This document shows, one piece after another, positions 1,327 to 23,724 of a DNA stretch of 23,724 nucleotides. The position numbers were made by a program, and so were the translations under genes. Under the pieces are notes generated by a model. The model was not told where the DNA came from, did not search any database, and worked only from the letters and a program-made list of their open reading frames with translations. How positions within the stretch are numbered: position 1 is the first letter of the stretch; every line of letters begins with the position of its first letter. Source of the stretch: a virus; the IMG/VR virus record IMGVR_UViG_3300037493_004234, positions 1 to 23,724 of that record; one strand, written 5' to 3'.

Positions 1327-4083
1327 CTACGGTGTCATATACAACTCAGCGTACTTATTGAAAACCTTTGGGAGATTTTTCTGGAGATGCTTCTCTAGCA
1401 CCTGCGCCAACGTCATAGAATCTGTTATCCCGCTACCGTCGATCTTAACCTCGACAGTTATATTCTGAGTAAAGTCTGGTTTTTCTGGGCCTTTCCACCC
1501 CTCGGAGGATTTACGAGAACTATCCTGTAGCTCTTTCAATCTCGCTCTATTTCTAACAGTATCTGTAATTCGAGCTAACTCCTGCGTTGTTCCCATCGAC
1601 TGATTAAAGGTTACTTCATTATCACTTAAGCTACTAGTATCAATTCCAAACCTATTCTCAAGCATAGCCCTAGCAGCATTCGCCATAGCCGCGGAGCTTC
1701 CTGTAAGATCGGCCTTAGCCATTCCTTCATCAAAAAAACCTGTGTTACCCATGTCTTGCTTTGAAAGAAGAACTCCTTTATTAAACTCGTCTAAACTAAT
1801 TTGCTTAGTAAGGAACTCCCAATAAAGACCCACTTGCGTAGCAGATCTTCTCAGAAAAGCACTTATTACCTCGGAAGTGTTGAAGACAAGCACCTTAATC
1901 CTGGATACCACGTTTACAGCGCCATCCCAGAAGGCATCCTTAGTCATAAATGAAGCCAACGCAGCAACGCCAACTAAGAGCCAACCAAGCGGGCCAGCAG
2001 CAGCCGCAGCACTCAATGCGAAAGTGATTAGACCCTTAGCAGCGAGCACAGCCGAAGATGCGAGAACCATAAACTTCGCTGCGACGATAACTCCTACTAA
2101 CCAGCCTAACCATTCCATACCCGTTCCGAGTCTCTTCATATCCCGTATTCCACCCTTGCCAACCCATAACTCAAGAATATTTTCCATGGCAGTAAATAGC
2201 CCCACAAATGGGCGCGTAATAATATATACCACAGCACCTAGCGGAATAAGGGCCTGTTGCACACCTCGAATAACACCCGAGAAGAACTGCTTTAGTAAAT
2301 ACTTCGCTTGTAAAATCCTTCCTACAAGTCCCAGAAGACCTTTCTTTTCAAGCTTATCATATAAAGCTTTGTTGGTTCCGGTTCCTGTCCAAAACTCTAA
2401 TACACCTCGTGTAACAAGAGAGATGTTATCGAAAAGTCTTTTTAGACGACTGAATACCGACTCCGTACTCGTCCCCATAACGCTCGTGAAACTTTTATAG
2501 GCTACATATAATAGTACAAACGCTCCGGCCAAAACCGCAAAGTTAAGCATAGCTGCTTTCGTGGCAGCGCTAAACACAAACATACCCTTCGCAGCAGCGA
2601 GAGTCCCCACTCCTGTACCTGTCAACGCGGGTATGATGAAAGAGAGAAGCATAGCTAATCCGCCAAGAGGAAGGAGAACCGCTGCGCTAGCAGCAAATAA
2701 ACCTGTTAAAGCAACCGCAGTGTAAGCTATCGCACTTGCTACAGCAGGATTCTCTTTCAAAAAGTCAGAGAAGCGAAGCATCAACTCAGTGAACTTCTGG
2801 AGGATTGGAGATAATGCCTTTACTAATGAATCACCAAATGAAATCTTGATTTGTGCGGCAGCAGCGGCAAACTTCTTCTCGATGCCTCCGGGAGTCTCTT
2901 CGATAATCCTCCTGGCTCTTTCGGCATAGCCGATGGACTTCTCCATCTCGTCTCTCATCAACACAAATGCGTCCTTGGCAGACTTTCCGGACCGAATATA
3001 ATTTTGGAACGCAGCTAGTGCGGAAGATCCCATCTTCCTAAACAATATCTCAGAAATTTTGAAGAACTCTATGTCTCCCTCGGTTTTCCGTATATCTTGC
3101 AGCCTATCTAAGAGAGTAATTAAATTATTACTGTAATTCTTTAAGTTGCCCTGATCGTCAAAGAAATTGACCTGCAACTTCTGCGCTGCTTGAATGAACT
3201 GCTTGGCCTCATAATCAATATCGCCGGATAGCATGGCCTGCTGGAAAGTAAGCCCTTTCTTTTCAGCATACGACTTAACCTGCCAACCTACCTTATTCAT
3301 CATTCTAACTAATTCTGTTGTCTGTCTTGCTGCATCCGCTGGGCGCAAAAACGTTCTCAACACGCCCATGGCAGCTCCAGCCTCGGATAAGGATATGTTA
3401 CCAATAGAGGTAAGGTCTCTCATAGAATGCAGTAATTGTGGAAGATCCTTGAACTCCACTGCTGACACGTTTGCAAGCTTGATAAGCTTGTCAGCAGTAG
3501 ATCCCATAGTTTCACCCTTGCGCTGAAATGCCTTATACCAACCCATTAACGTTCTTGCTGCCTCTTCCTCTCCGATCTGACCTTGTGTCGCAGTCATAAA
3601 ATTGAGGAGTGGCTTTATACCTTTTCGAGACTCTTCTAGATCACCGAAGTCTGCGGCTAGACGAGTGAACGCTTTCGTACCCTCAACAGGATCAAACATT
3701 GTCCCGCGAGTCATGTTCAACATCTCTTCGCGTAGCTCTACCATTTTACTCTTAGAGACATCGATAACAACTCGCATAGCACCCAGTGCGTTTTCAAACT
3801 CTTTCGCGGCGTTGTAGGAAGGCTTCAAGAACCCGCCAACCATAGCAGCACTAGCAGCGGCAGCAGCTGCACCAACCATGGTAGCAGCCATTCCGATACC
3901 CTGGAGAGATCGTTGGAGGTTGCGAGTGAGGTTGTCTACCGCTTTGTTCGCACCCAACGCCTGCTTTCTAATGCCTATGAGAGCTCGCTCGGCTTGGCTG
4001 GCCCCGGAAACTGCTTGACGAGCATCGACGACAACGCGGATACCCATCAAGAGCTGTCCACCAATAAGTCCTGCTAGACTCAT
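1327..4083 (-). CDS. Tail tape measure protein
   Basis: A 918-aa protein, the largest in the window, placed directly after the frameshifted tail chaperone, which is the standard position of tape measures. Residues about 1-100 are Ala/Gly-rich and helical, 100-400 match the conserved core of the TP901/PhageMin_Tail group ('FENALGAMRVVID' and a long run on attachment and counting of helices), and there are strongly hydrophobic stretches at about 448-485, 500-530 and 658-712 that may insert into or cross the host membrane during DNA entry. With the usual 1.5 angstrom per residue, the tail would be about 140 nm long. Its ATG overlaps the stop of the frameshift product (ATGA), which couples the two. 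No lysozyme or peptidase motif is seen. Confidence 0.93.
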   Translation of the reverse strand: MSLAGLIGGQLLMGIRVVVDARQAVSGASQAERALIGIRKQALGANKAVDNLTRNLQRSLQGIGMAATMVGAAAAAASAAMVGGFLKPSYNAAKEFENALGAMRVVIDVSKSKMVELREEMLNMTRGTMFDPVEGTKAFTRLAADFGDLEESRKGIKPLLNFMTATQGQIGEEEAARTLMGWYKAFQRKGETMGSTADKLIKLANVSAVEFKDLPQLLHSMRDLTSIGNISLSEAGAAMGVLRTFLRPADAARQTTELVRMMNKVGWQVKSYAEKKGLTFQQAMLSGDIDYEAKQFIQAAQKLQVNFFDDQGNLKNYSNNLITLLDRLQDIRKTEGDIEFFKISEILFRKMGSSALAAFQNYIRSGKSAKDAFVLMRDEMEKSIGYAERARRIIEETPGGIEKKFAAAAAQIKISFGDSLVKALSPILQKFTELMLRFSDFLKENPAVASAIAYTAVALTGLFAASAAVLLPLGGLAMLLSFIIPALTGTGVGTLAAAKGMFVFSAATKAAMLNFAVLAGAFVLLYVAYKSFTSVMGTSTESVFSRLKRLFDNISLVTRGVLEFWTGTGTNKALYDKLEKKGLLGLVGRILQAKYLLKQFFSGVIRGVQQALIPLGAVVYIITRPFVGLFTAMENILELWVGKGGIRDMKRLGTGMEWLGWLVGVIVAAKFMVLASSAVLAAKGLITFALSAAAAAGPLGWLLVGVAALASFMTKDAFWDGAVNVVSRIKVLVFNTSEVISAFLRRSATQVGLYWEFLTKQISLDEFNKGVLLSKQDMGNTGFFDEGMAKADLTGSSAAMANAARAMLENRFGIDTSSLSDNEVTFNQSMGTTQELARITDTVRNRARLKELQDSSRKSSEGWKGPEKPDFTQNITVEVKIDGSGITDSMTLAQVLEKHLQKNLPKVFNKYAELYMTP

Positions 4084-5011
4084 GTACCCTTACCTCTCTC
4101 TAGGTCTTTTATTATCATCTCAACGTATTCTAACCGTCGAGAGGAGGGAAGTCTAAGAATTTCAGGTTCGCTCCAATGATAGTTTGAAGCGATTACGTGA
4201 GTCTCAAATCTTAGGTTTTCTAGGCAGACCTCTTTTTGCGCCCCGATCCCCCGAAAAAAGAAGCGATATCCGCATGTGCCTCGAATTCCCTATCGCACTT
4301 ATCGCAAGAAACGGTCTTCCACATCCGCATACCTGGGTAATCATACTGGATGATTTCAAGTAGGGTTTGACGATCCCTCGAACGCATCTTCTTGACTTGA
4401 GTCCTATCCACCGCAGTCATATCCCCAACTTGCTTGATACTCGCACAGAGCAACGCATCAATTTGGTCAGCCATATTATCGATGTCTCCAGATAACTCCT
4501 GAACCTTACCTGTAACAAATTTGAGGATACCGTTCTTATGCCAGATCGTGTTTCCGTTGACAACCTGAGGAATACCAATCTCAAGTTCAAAGGGAACTTC
4601 GCAGGACTTATCTTCCGGCCATTCAACTACCTCAAGACTATCAAGGTTTCCCTCTTCTTCGTAAACAACGCCGCATCGAGGACAAGAACCCGCGATAACA
4701 AGATCATTTTTTCCACTCAACTGGTGGATTTTAGCGAAAATGAAGTCTCTGTCCATTCCATACATCTTCTGGACGATAGAAACGTCAATCAGCGCATCTG
4801 GATTCTTCTTGCGAGGAACAACCCCTTCAATCTCTTGGATACAACGAGCGAGAATATTAGAGGTACACTTAGAAGCGTTCTTGCTAGACTTTTTCCCGGA
4901 TAGGAGATGATCGTCTGTCCCAGTTAGTTCATCAATGAAGACTTTTCGATAACGAGCGCCATCAATCTCTAAACCAACTGGAAGGGTGATTGAATCGGAG
5001 GCTTCGGACAT
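4080..5011 (-). CDS. Tail assembly chaperone, -1 frameshift product (gpG-T type fusion)
   Basis: Slipping back one base after codon 253 at T TTT TTC (4259..4253) opens a second frame of 57 codons that runs to TGA at 4082..4080, overlapping the tape measure ATG. The added part contains 'HVIASNYHWSEPEILRLPSS' followed by 'RRLEYVEMIIKDLERGKG', which reads as a genuine protein: amphipathic helix, no rare runs, and a pattern (Trp-Ser-x-x-Glu-Ile-Leu-x-Leu-Pro) seen in short ORFs that follow this chaperone elsewhere. The extension has no usable start codon of its own apart from one late ATG, so expression by frameshifting is the simplest account. Tail chaperones of lambda and many myophages are made this way in two lengths. 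The total is 310 aa. Frequency of shifting cannot be judged. Confidence 0.78.
4220..5011 (-). CDS. Tail assembly chaperone, unshifted form (T4 gp26/gp51-like baseplate family)
   Basis: The 263-aa in-frame product starts at an ATG preceded by AGGAGAAACACC. It carries two Cys pairs, C110/C113 ('CPRCG') and C236/C239 ('CDKCD'), which should make one zinc ribbon. The family with this architecture (T4 baseplate protein domain, found between tail tube and tape measure) acts as the tail assembly chaperone in many contractile-tailed phages. The last ten residues follow a run of six T and then G/C-rich codons, and the ORF ends in a basic tail. Length, zinc ribbon and position between tube and tape measure all agree. 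The same message is also decoded with a -1 shift into a 310-aa form (see 4080-5011). Confidence 0.8.
   Translation of the reverse strand: MSEASDSITLPVGLEIDGARYRKVFIDELTGTDDHLLSGKKSSKNASKCTSNILARCIQEIEGVVPRKKNPDALIDVSIVQKMYGMDRDFIFAKIHQLSGKNDLVIAGSCPRCGVVYEEEGNLDSLEVVEWPEDKSCEVPFELEIGIPQVVNGNTIWHKNGILKFVTGKVQELSGDIDNMADQIDALLCASIKQVGDMTAVDRTQVKKMRSRDRQTLLEIIQYDYPGMRMWKTVSCDKCDREFEAHADIASFFGGSGRKKRSA
4253..4259 (-). promoter_or_regulatory. Programmed -1 ribosomal frameshift site (T TTT TTC)
   Basis: On the coding strand the heptamer T TTT TTC is in the correct register (codons TCT-TTT-TTC of the chaperone), matching X XXY YYZ. Slippage moves reading into the open -1 frame described at 4080-5011. 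A second, weaker candidate, C AAA AAG (4238..4232), lies fifteen codons-bases further on and gives nearly the same product. No clear pseudoknot follows; the sequence after the site is G-rich. Confidence 0.75.
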
Positions 5012-17311: not shown

Positions 17312-18016
17312 CTAGATCCGATTAAAGTCCTCATACTCAAGATATGTCCCGAACATATTTGGATTCCAGTGGTTGCTATTCGCAAACACGAACTCCCCAG
17401 TGCCCTTGCAGTGATACCCCTGGATGCTCCAAACGTAGAACCCGATCTTCTCGAAATACTTCGACAGCCGCTCGTAGTCGGCCCTGGAATGAATCTCCAC
17501 CATGACGATGGATGTCTTGCTCAGATCCATGTTCTCAATGATGTCGACCTCCGCACCCTCCGTGTCCACCTTTACAATGTCGAACTCTCCGACTATCTCT
17601 CTTGGGTGAATGGTCGGAACAACACGCTCCTCCACATCGTCCGTGCTCGCGTGCGAAAAACCGTTCCCAGAAGTATGAAAACGATCTTTGTTCACCTTGA
17701 TCGTCAACTCCTCACTCGTGCTCACGGCAAAGTGTCGCGCTTCGATCATAGGGTATGATGAAGTGTTCTTCATCAAACAGTCGAACACCTCCTTCACCGG
17801 CTCGTAAGACCTCACACAACTCCCTGGAAAGCGTGTCACCGCCCACAACGCAAACGCCCCAACGTTCCCACCGATGTCCAAAATGGACAGATTGACCCCA
17901 CCAAGAAAACAATCATACCCTCCTCGGATGAACACCTCGTCCACCACACACTCCCCACCATCAGGAACGAAAAACACCTGCTCCATCCCAGCGCCCTGTG
18001 CAATTACCTTTTTCAT
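17312..18016 (-). CDS. FkbM-family SAM-dependent methyltransferase
   Basis: A 234-aa protein with an excellent ribosome site (GAGGTGAT). Motif I of the Rossmann fold is 'ILDIGGNVGAFAL' at residues 45-57, the acidic second strand end is E72 ('RSYEPVKEVFDCLMKN'), and 'DIVKVDTEGAEVDIIENM' at 146-163 with a following 'VMVEIHS' is the FkbM signature. FkbM enzymes O-methylate small molecules, sugars and glycans. In a phage, possible targets are host surface sugars, virion glycans or a capsule, but nothing here fixes the substrate. No glycosyltransferase lies nearby. The C-terminal part ends in Asn/Tyr-rich sequence and seems complete. Length fits the compact members. Confidence 0.9.
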   Translation of the reverse strand: MKKVIAQGAGMEQVFFVPDGGECVVDEVFIRGGYDCFLGGVNLSILDIGGNVGAFALWAVTRFPGSCVRSYEPVKEVFDCLMKNTSSYPMIEARHFAVSTSEELTIKVNKDRFHTSGNGFSHASTDDVEERVVPTIHPREIVGEFDIVKVDTEGAEVDIIENMDLSKTSIVMVEIHSRADYERLSKYFEKIGFYVWSIQGYHCKGTGEFVFANSNHWNPNMFGTYLEYEDFNRI

Positions 18017-18129: not shown

Positions 18130-18969
18130 TCATTTCACACAGATGGTGTTGTACTCGACAGTGTTGAGTTTCAAACCCACCTCTGGAAACTTCTTCACCT
18201 CCTCATCCTTAGAAAGGAACCACACCTCGTGCCGGTTCAACCCTAAATCTGGGACAGAGGAAGTAATGATTTCCTCTGGTCCATCCCCAACCCCACCGTG
18301 CAAAAATCGCTTCCCTCGACACCTATCCTCATCGTAAATGCCGTGCGGATAGCCGTTCCTACAATGACTATAACCATAAGTGGATTGGTCATACTCACAC
18401 CCAGGCTCGAACAACCCATCGCAGTTATCCACCAACGTCCGCACCTCTGGAGAAGTGGGCACCCGCATCCCAAGATTCTTGCACCGCATCTCAATCAGAT
18501 AATACATAGCCTTCTCAGGAATATCCTCAACATAGCCAAACAACTCCCAACACAACCCAGTCCGATCATCACACCAAAGATGCAACAAAGGCGCACTCTC
18601 TGAAACACTCTCACTAGCAGAGTCAGAAACACTCTCCGATGCGGAAGATGTCTCAGTGATGGTCCCACTGGAAGATGTGTCCACTGAAGTAGAAACCGAG
18701 CCGCTCCCAGTGTCTACCACTCCAGTCCCAGTTTCATCAACACTGCCACTCCCATCACCCCAACCACTACCACTATCAACAGTCTCGTTGGCACTATCAA
18801 CATCACTGCAATCTGTACTATCACTCCCAGGATCAACGAAATAACCAGACTCACTGCAACTGTCTCCCTCAACCAACTCCCCAGTCTCCATATCTACTCC
18901 CGCAGGGTCCACTATCAACGAACAACCAAAACCCACTAACACGAAAATCAGCGGAAATACCCATCTCAT
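18130..18969 (-). CDS. Secreted lipoprotein with Ser/Thr/Asp/Gly linker and Cys-rich Lcl/DUF1566-like domain
   Basis: A 279-aa protein with a strong ribosome site (AGGAGGTG). The N-terminus has a single Arg, a hydrophobic run and a lipobox-like 'VGFGC' with Cys16 as the likely lipid-bearing residue. Residues about 45-126 are a low-complexity linker of Asp, Ser, Thr, Gly and Glu. The C-terminal domain, 128-279, holds many Cys (positions 133, 140, 163, 183, 191, 203, 217, 277) and 'RCKNLGMRVPTSPEVRTLVD', which resembles the 'C-x-N-L-x-x-R-x-P-T-x-x-E-L-R-x-L-I' core of Lcl/DUF1566 domains. Such linkers and domains are common in lipoproteins of Myxococcota and related groups, and suggest host origin. 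It may alter the cell surface, for instance to block a second phage. This role is conjecture; family match is by eye. Confidence 0.72.
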   Translation of the reverse strand: MRWVFPLIFVLVGFGCSLIVDPAGVDMETGELVEGDSCSESGYFVDPGSDSTDCSDVDSANETVDSGSGWGDGSGSVDETGTGVVDTGSGSVSTSVDTSSSGTITETSSASESVSDSASESVSESAPLLHLWCDDRTGLCWELFGYVEDIPEKAMYYLIEMRCKNLGMRVPTSPEVRTLVDNCDGLFEPGCEYDQSTYGYSHCRNGYPHGIYDEDRCRGKRFLHGGVGDGPEEIITSSVPDLGLNRHEVWFLSKDEEVKKFPEVGLKLNTVEYNTICVK

Positions 18970-23605: not shown

Positions 23606-23724
23606 GCGCTCTGCGCTCTGCGCTCTGCGATAGCTGCGCTCTGCGCTCTGCGCTCTGCGATAGCTGCGCTCTGCGCTCTGCGCTCTGCGCTCTGCGCTCT
23701 GCGCTCTGCGCTCTGCGATAGCTG
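23606..23724. repeat. Tandem array of GCGCTCT units with GCGATAGCT spacers
   Basis: From 23606 the plus strand reads three GCGCTCT, one GCGATAGCT, three GCGCTCT, one GCGATAGCT, seven GCGCTCT, one GCGATAGCT, and leaves the window inside the next unit. The first two blocks are 30-bp higher-order units. All copies are identical, so the array expanded recently or is under active turnover. Function is unknown; iterons, a slippage-prone coding repeat, or an assembly edge are possible. Confidence 0.9.

Follow-up and report, generated by a model that had tools for sequence, protein, structure and literature searches.

We analysed a stretch of 23,724 bases from an IMG/VR virus record (IMGVR_UViG_3300037493_004234; the window, below, is this whole stretch) and found that the tail assembly chaperone gene of this uncultured contractile-tailed phage very probably carries a programmed −1 ribosomal frameshift. 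The chaperone gene is flanked by the genes for a gp19-type tail tube protein and for the tape measure protein (Table 1). A sequence-only reading had proposed that slippage near its 3′ end yields a 310-amino-acid fusion protein, and comparative data support this proposal, as both the slippery heptamer and a homologous extension are conserved among relatives.

According to this model, most ribosomes would stay in the 0 frame and produce a short form of 263 amino acids. A minority, perhaps a few percent or more, would slip back by one base with two tRNA-Phe on T_TTT_TTC and end 57 codons later, giving a 310-amino-acid long form that gains a helical C-terminal domain. If the analogy with lambda G/GT holds, the chaperone part shared by the two forms would coat the tape measure protein, the domain added to the long form would recruit tail-tube subunits and the frequency of slippage would set the ratio of short to long form. 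We infer both protein products and their ratio.

The slip site and the −1 frame

Codons 252 and 253 of the chaperone gene are TTT and TTC, preceded by TCT, which places T_TTT_TTC in exactly the register that the sequence-only reading had given. Already open ahead of the heptamer, the −1 frame then runs for 57 codons to a TGA at 4082-4080, which overlaps the ATG of the tape measure gene (4083-4081); the conceptual product of a −1 slip is 310 amino acids long and would read ADIASFF|RGIGAQK across the junction. Each of these features agrees with the earlier description. The extension had also been said to lack a usable start codon. This is true of the window, where the sole ATG, GTG or TTG inside the extension is an ATG at position 4118 that would leave 12 codons. 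Finally, ordinary calling of open reading frames (ORFs) had been expected to miss the long form. Relatives in GenBank bear this out: the extension is listed as a separate hypothetical gene in BRock, LuckySocke, SP-15 and Atu_ph07 and is omitted in pSt2308 and LIS04.

Taken alone, the window is weak evidence for frameshifting and only mildly unusual as a single sequence. After synonymous shuffling, the last 24 codons contained an in-frame XXXYYYZ heptamer in 27% of cases and TTTTTTC in 16%, and 57 open codons arise in 2.3% of mononucleotide shuffles. The case rises above chance because the site is conserved in relatives.

Conservation within the phage lineage

We scanned viral contigs with the major capsid protein and obtained 26 relatives; the chaperone gene is present in 13 of these. 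When either the chaperone or the tube protein served as the single query, no such relatives were returned. Since the 13 contigs contain two pairs of identical copies, 11 distinct sequences remained, or 12 with the window. The 11 other chaperone sequences are 37-46% identical to that of the window.

Conservation of the heptamer and of both frames among homologues had been named as a check on the proposed fusion, and it was found in all 12 distinct sequences. The in-phase xxT_TTT_TTC is kept in 13 of 13 contigs with the chaperone gene. At the site, the two Phe codons are TTT and TTC, respectively, in 12 of 12 sequences; elsewhere in these genes, Phe is encoded by 76 TTT and 46 TTC codons. Trp aside, the remaining invariant residues each use 2-6 different codons, and TTTTTTC is the longest invariant block of the lineage DNA alignment. 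In two relatives (L156 and L157), a 0-frame TAA directly follows the heptamer, leaving a tail of zero codons past the slip site, compared with 8-10 codons in most relatives.

The extensions in the −1 frame of the 13 contigs are all homologous, are 56-65 amino acids long and share the core HxxAxxYGWTExxILRLPxxRR. When we compared L148 with L150, the 43 extension codons past the overlap contained 22 synonymous and 7 non-synonymous differences. Thus, the −1 frame is under protein-level purifying selection. Throughout the lineage, the −1 stop adjoins or overlaps the tape measure start. In four of the 12 sequences (the window, L159, L160 and L156), no ATG, GTG or TTG precedes the conserved core of the extension. 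An extension encoded as a gene with its own start, one of the outcomes named as contradicting the fusion, was not the arrangement in the lineage homologues; standalone genes occur only in distant contractile systems (L098).

The chaperone family and the extension domain

The window chaperone matches PF12322 (T4_baseplate) with 26.5 bits over residues 41-253, above the gathering cut-off of 24.5, and this score assigns it to the T4 gp26/gp51 family. It also matches PF10109 (Phage_TAC_7, E/41/14; P2 E and Mu 41) with 16.0 bits. As this is below the cut-off of 25, kinship to the P2 and Mu chaperones is a lead only. An alignment of distant chaperones gave no usable conserved stretch. The chaperone (4220-5011) is apparently duplicated internally, each half consisting of a helical part and a CxxC pair, and its second half also aligns to the first half of L118.

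By profile scores, the extension is related to DUF6760 (PF20546). The tie is made by sequences that score above the cut-off: the L143 extension (30.0 bits), the in-frame C terminus of L088 (29.7 bits) and a separate gene in L098 (51.9 bits), which in this distant contractile system is a standalone extension gene with its own ATG.

A scan with the tube protein yielded 54 viral loci and 80 loci in bacterial or archaeal chromosomes. Chaperone and extension form one ordinary ORF in 35 loci, mostly of about 260-340 amino acids, and in-frame fusion is the norm in chromosomal contractile-tail loci. The 310-amino-acid fusion of the window aligns through the junction to single-ORF proteins of bacterial genomes (best E-value 8e-24, L088), and the 57-residue extension alone matches the C termini of in-frame fused chaperones (best E-value 7e-10). 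We also considered a dnaX-like reverse case, in which slippery sites within in-frame fusions would yield the short form, and rejected it, as these sites are not conserved.

In the structural model of the L088 in-frame fusion (predicted local distance difference test score 95), a long helix runs from the junction (residues 245-271) and is followed by two more helices. The viral models closest to it in structure are T4-like baseplate hub assembly proteins, with E-values down to about 1e-17. Among solved structures, VIA-align gave weak matches, first to 3fgx, an uncharacterised protein (Z 4.4), and second to the HK97 tail assembly chaperone 2ob9 (Z 3.9 over 88 residues). There was no credible sequence match among solved structures, and the best Foldseek E-value in PDB was 0.15.

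Alternatives to −1 frameshifting

Several observations weigh against a programmed −1 frameshift. No conserved downstream RNA structure was predicted, as the lineage alignment gave no consensus structure, and no upstream stimulator was spotted by eye, although no systematic search for one was made. Single-sequence folds are unremarkable near the site; a wider stretch of 143 nucleotides has a z of −2.3. The window extension itself scores 14.4 bits against DUF6760, below the cut-off of 27, and by this score does not qualify as a member. Lastly, in L144 and L151 the 0-frame stop is closely followed by a −1-frame ATG, so that these two might make a separate short product, and other members of the lineage contain scattered possible starts.

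If the extension were a small gene of its own, whose translation is coupled to that of the chaperone or re-initiates past the chaperone stop codon, the ATG codons of L144 and L151 would be explained, and DUF6760 genes of this kind exist in other contractile systems, as in L098. However, the four sequences without a start codon ahead of the conserved core do not fit, and both the fixed TTT TTC codons and the in-frame fusions elsewhere would be left unexplained; we regard this arrangement as very improbable. Transcriptional slippage, in which RNA polymerase inserts an extra U at the T6 run and thereby joins chaperone and extension in one frame, would give an identical protein, and a run of six T is present at the site in every lineage member. 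Yet six T is short for bacterial transcription slippage, and the run is never longer in the 12 sequences. As the T6 run, the final C and the codon phase are all fixed, tandem tRNA slippage on X_XXY_YYZ fits better, making slippage by the polymerase rather improbable.

A sequencing or assembly error has next to no probability. Chromosomal loci are mostly in-frame fusions, and a T6/T7 miscount that split such a gene would mimic the pattern, but 13 further, independently named contigs share the heptamer and the frame relation, which refutes this explanation, and the neighbouring long ORFs of the window are intact. A different question concerns function: even with a real frameshift, the protein might act chiefly in assembly of the baseplate hub, the annotation given to T4 gp51, and not as a chaperone of the tape measure and tube. 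T4 gp26 and gp51, both in PF12322, appear as hub assembly chaperones in PMC3004832. The window gene sits between the tail tube and tape measure genes, the usual place of a tail assembly chaperone, and the title of a 2022 study of T4-like phages (Vladimirov et al.) speaks of tail assembly chaperone genes; a main role at the hub seems unlikely.

Other decoding modes among PF12322 chaperones

The proposed −1 frameshifting in the window lineage can be set beside other arrangements in the family, a picture that the sequence-only reading had missed. At 55 loci, mainly in actinobacterial phages and prophages, together with SP-15 and GXN1, the chaperone ends a few codons past an in-frame TTT that is always followed by C. 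Where inspected among these loci, the downstream open frame is +1; for 22 loci, the domain profile found its best match, with an E-value below 1, in the +1-frame extension. The actinobacterial PF12322 chaperones likely constitute a +1 (or −2) frameshift family. A +1 shift from UUU to UUC would be compatible with their sites, such as CTG TTT CGC in Streptomyces phage BRock; for SP-15 and its relative LIS04, where C or A comes after TTT TTT, the shift could also be −2. The invariant in-frame TTT followed by C, with a +1-frame extension, is seen at the chaperone 3′ ends of L002-L059, L087, L100, L110 and L121.

In the Agrobacterium jumbo phage Atu_ph07 (L180:2250-2510), the PF12322 gene ends CAT TTT TTC GCA TGA and the −1 frame is open. 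This frame carries a related-looking domain; the part lying downstream is annotated as a separate hypothetical protein. Thus, a −1 site occurs far outside the window lineage too.

T4 gp26 (208 amino acids) scores 215.6 bits against PF12322, and gp51 (249 amino acids) scores 177.5 bits over residues 1-201. The C terminus of gp51 matched the extension profile with an hhalign probability of 81.5, compared with 4.0 for the best of 100 column-permuted controls. HMMER detected no match between gp51 and this profile, and only the profile-profile comparison finds the likeness. Because of this match, T4 seems to encode its short and long forms in two genes. T4 gene 51 (L167:4480-5229) looks like a gp26 paralogue with the C-terminal extension domain that others reach by frameshifting.

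In a core-domain tree, the decoding modes track the clades, with the window lineage forming one clade (100/100) and the in-frame group occupying one side of a branch (86/90); the tree leaves deep relations open. We favour, with some reserve, the view that these proteins represent one two-domain family, with a gp26/gp51 core, a DUF6760-like tail and a junction at the same Phe codon, which is expressed in at least four ways. Some members would use a −1 shift and others a shift of +1 or −2; a third way would be to fuse the two parts in frame or keep them as separate genes, and T4 would have taken a fourth by duplicating the gene. If so, T4, the usual exception to tail-chaperone frameshifting, would be one solution inside a frameshifting family.

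Comparison with known tail chaperones

Shifts of −1, −2 or +1 in tail chaperone genes are well documented, and T4 is named as the exception (PMC5009743). In lambda, the gpG/gpGT chaperone gene lies between the major tail protein and tape measure genes, and slippage by −1 close to its 3′ end produces a longer form in minor amounts (PMC5009743). The window gene resembles this system in placement, in the proposed −1 slip near the 3′ end and in its overlapping frames, although no sequence relation was detected. Like lambda G/GT, it has two overlapping ORFs between tube and tape measure and a conserved in-phase slippery site; in the window, L159, L160 and L156, the second ORF also lacks a start of its own. 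It differs in belonging to a contractile tail and in pairing a T4 gp26-family chaperone, with two CxxC pairs, with a DUF6760-related extension.

The slip site of P2 gpE/E′ is a T-run. The chaperones of P2, which shifts with higher efficiency, and of Mu, which uses a −2 shift, are frameshifted chaperones of contractile tails (PMC5009743), as we propose for the window, but the window matches their family, PF10109, only below the cut-off. T4 gp26 and gp51 share PF12322 with the window chaperone, and the gp51 C terminus resembles the extension family, but the short and long forms are two separate genes and no frameshift is involved. A 2025 publication argues from conservation that the tail chaperone of the contractile-tailed Vandenendeviridae and that of the Andersonviridae (phage Adele) undergo a conserved −1 shift, at a T-run upstream of the tape measure; the motif given there is GTTTTT, compared with TTTTTTC in the window (PMC12846349). 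Streptomyces BRock-like phages, Bacillus SP-15 and Streptococcus GXN1 have a PF12322 chaperone (about 20-25% identity) with an extension in another frame at the homologous Phe codon, but this frame is +1, reachable at TTT C or TTT TTT by shifting +1 or −2, and not −1. A study of T4-like phages by Vladimirov et al. from 2022 reportedly concerns, as its title has it, tail assembly chaperone genes and a mechanism other than frameshifting.

We found no description of a frameshift in a PF12322 gene in the literature searched, which covered Vladimirov et al. by title, and no mention of DUF6760. The window site is a well-supported new case of the already known frameshifting of tail chaperones. It adds a clean −1 recoding site to a chaperone family that includes T4 gp26 and gp51, and whose best-known member does not frameshift. 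It also suggests a role for DUF6760, a domain of unknown function, as the extension domain of a tail chaperone. As in-frame, split, duplicated and frameshifted versions exist in nature, the need for a fixed short-to-long ratio becomes experimentally approachable, and the family-level decoding pattern deserves a short comparative study.

Genomic context

Table 1. Features of the tail gene region of the window
Feature	Position	Strand	Basis or remark
Tail assembly chaperone, 0-frame product (short form)	5011..4220	minus	ORF from ATG to TAG, 263 amino acids; PF12322 match
Slippery heptamer T_TTT_TTC, 0 frame, codons 252-253	4259-4253	minus	Sequence
−1 frame extension, 57 codons + TGA	4080..4253	minus	C-terminal domain related to DUF6760
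0-frame tail of short form past slip site, GGSGRKKRSA + TAG	4220..4252	minus	Overlaps −1 frame
First CxxC pair of chaperone, C110 + C113	4673..4684	minus	Sequence; invariant across alignments
Second CxxC pair of chaperone, C236 + C239	4295..4306	minus	Both Cys kept within lineage
Tail tape measure protein, 918 amino acids	1327..4083	minus	PF10145 + phrog_28
Tail tube protein (gp19-like), 155 amino acids	5088..5555	minus	PF06841, 133.9 bits
Tail sheath protein, 825 amino acids	5570..8047	minus	phrog_23 + phrog_17610

Outside this region, positions 18130-18969 encode a protein of 279 amino acids that begins like a lipoprotein and contains a long Ser/Thr/Gly-rich stretch; we found no Pfam match for it. 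A gene for an FkbM-type methyltransferase (PF05050, 39.2 bits) lies at 17312-18016, close to where the structural gene module ends. The contig itself terminates in a tandem repeat (23606-23724), with a 7-base unit, GCGCTCT, present 15 times and a 30-base unit present four times.

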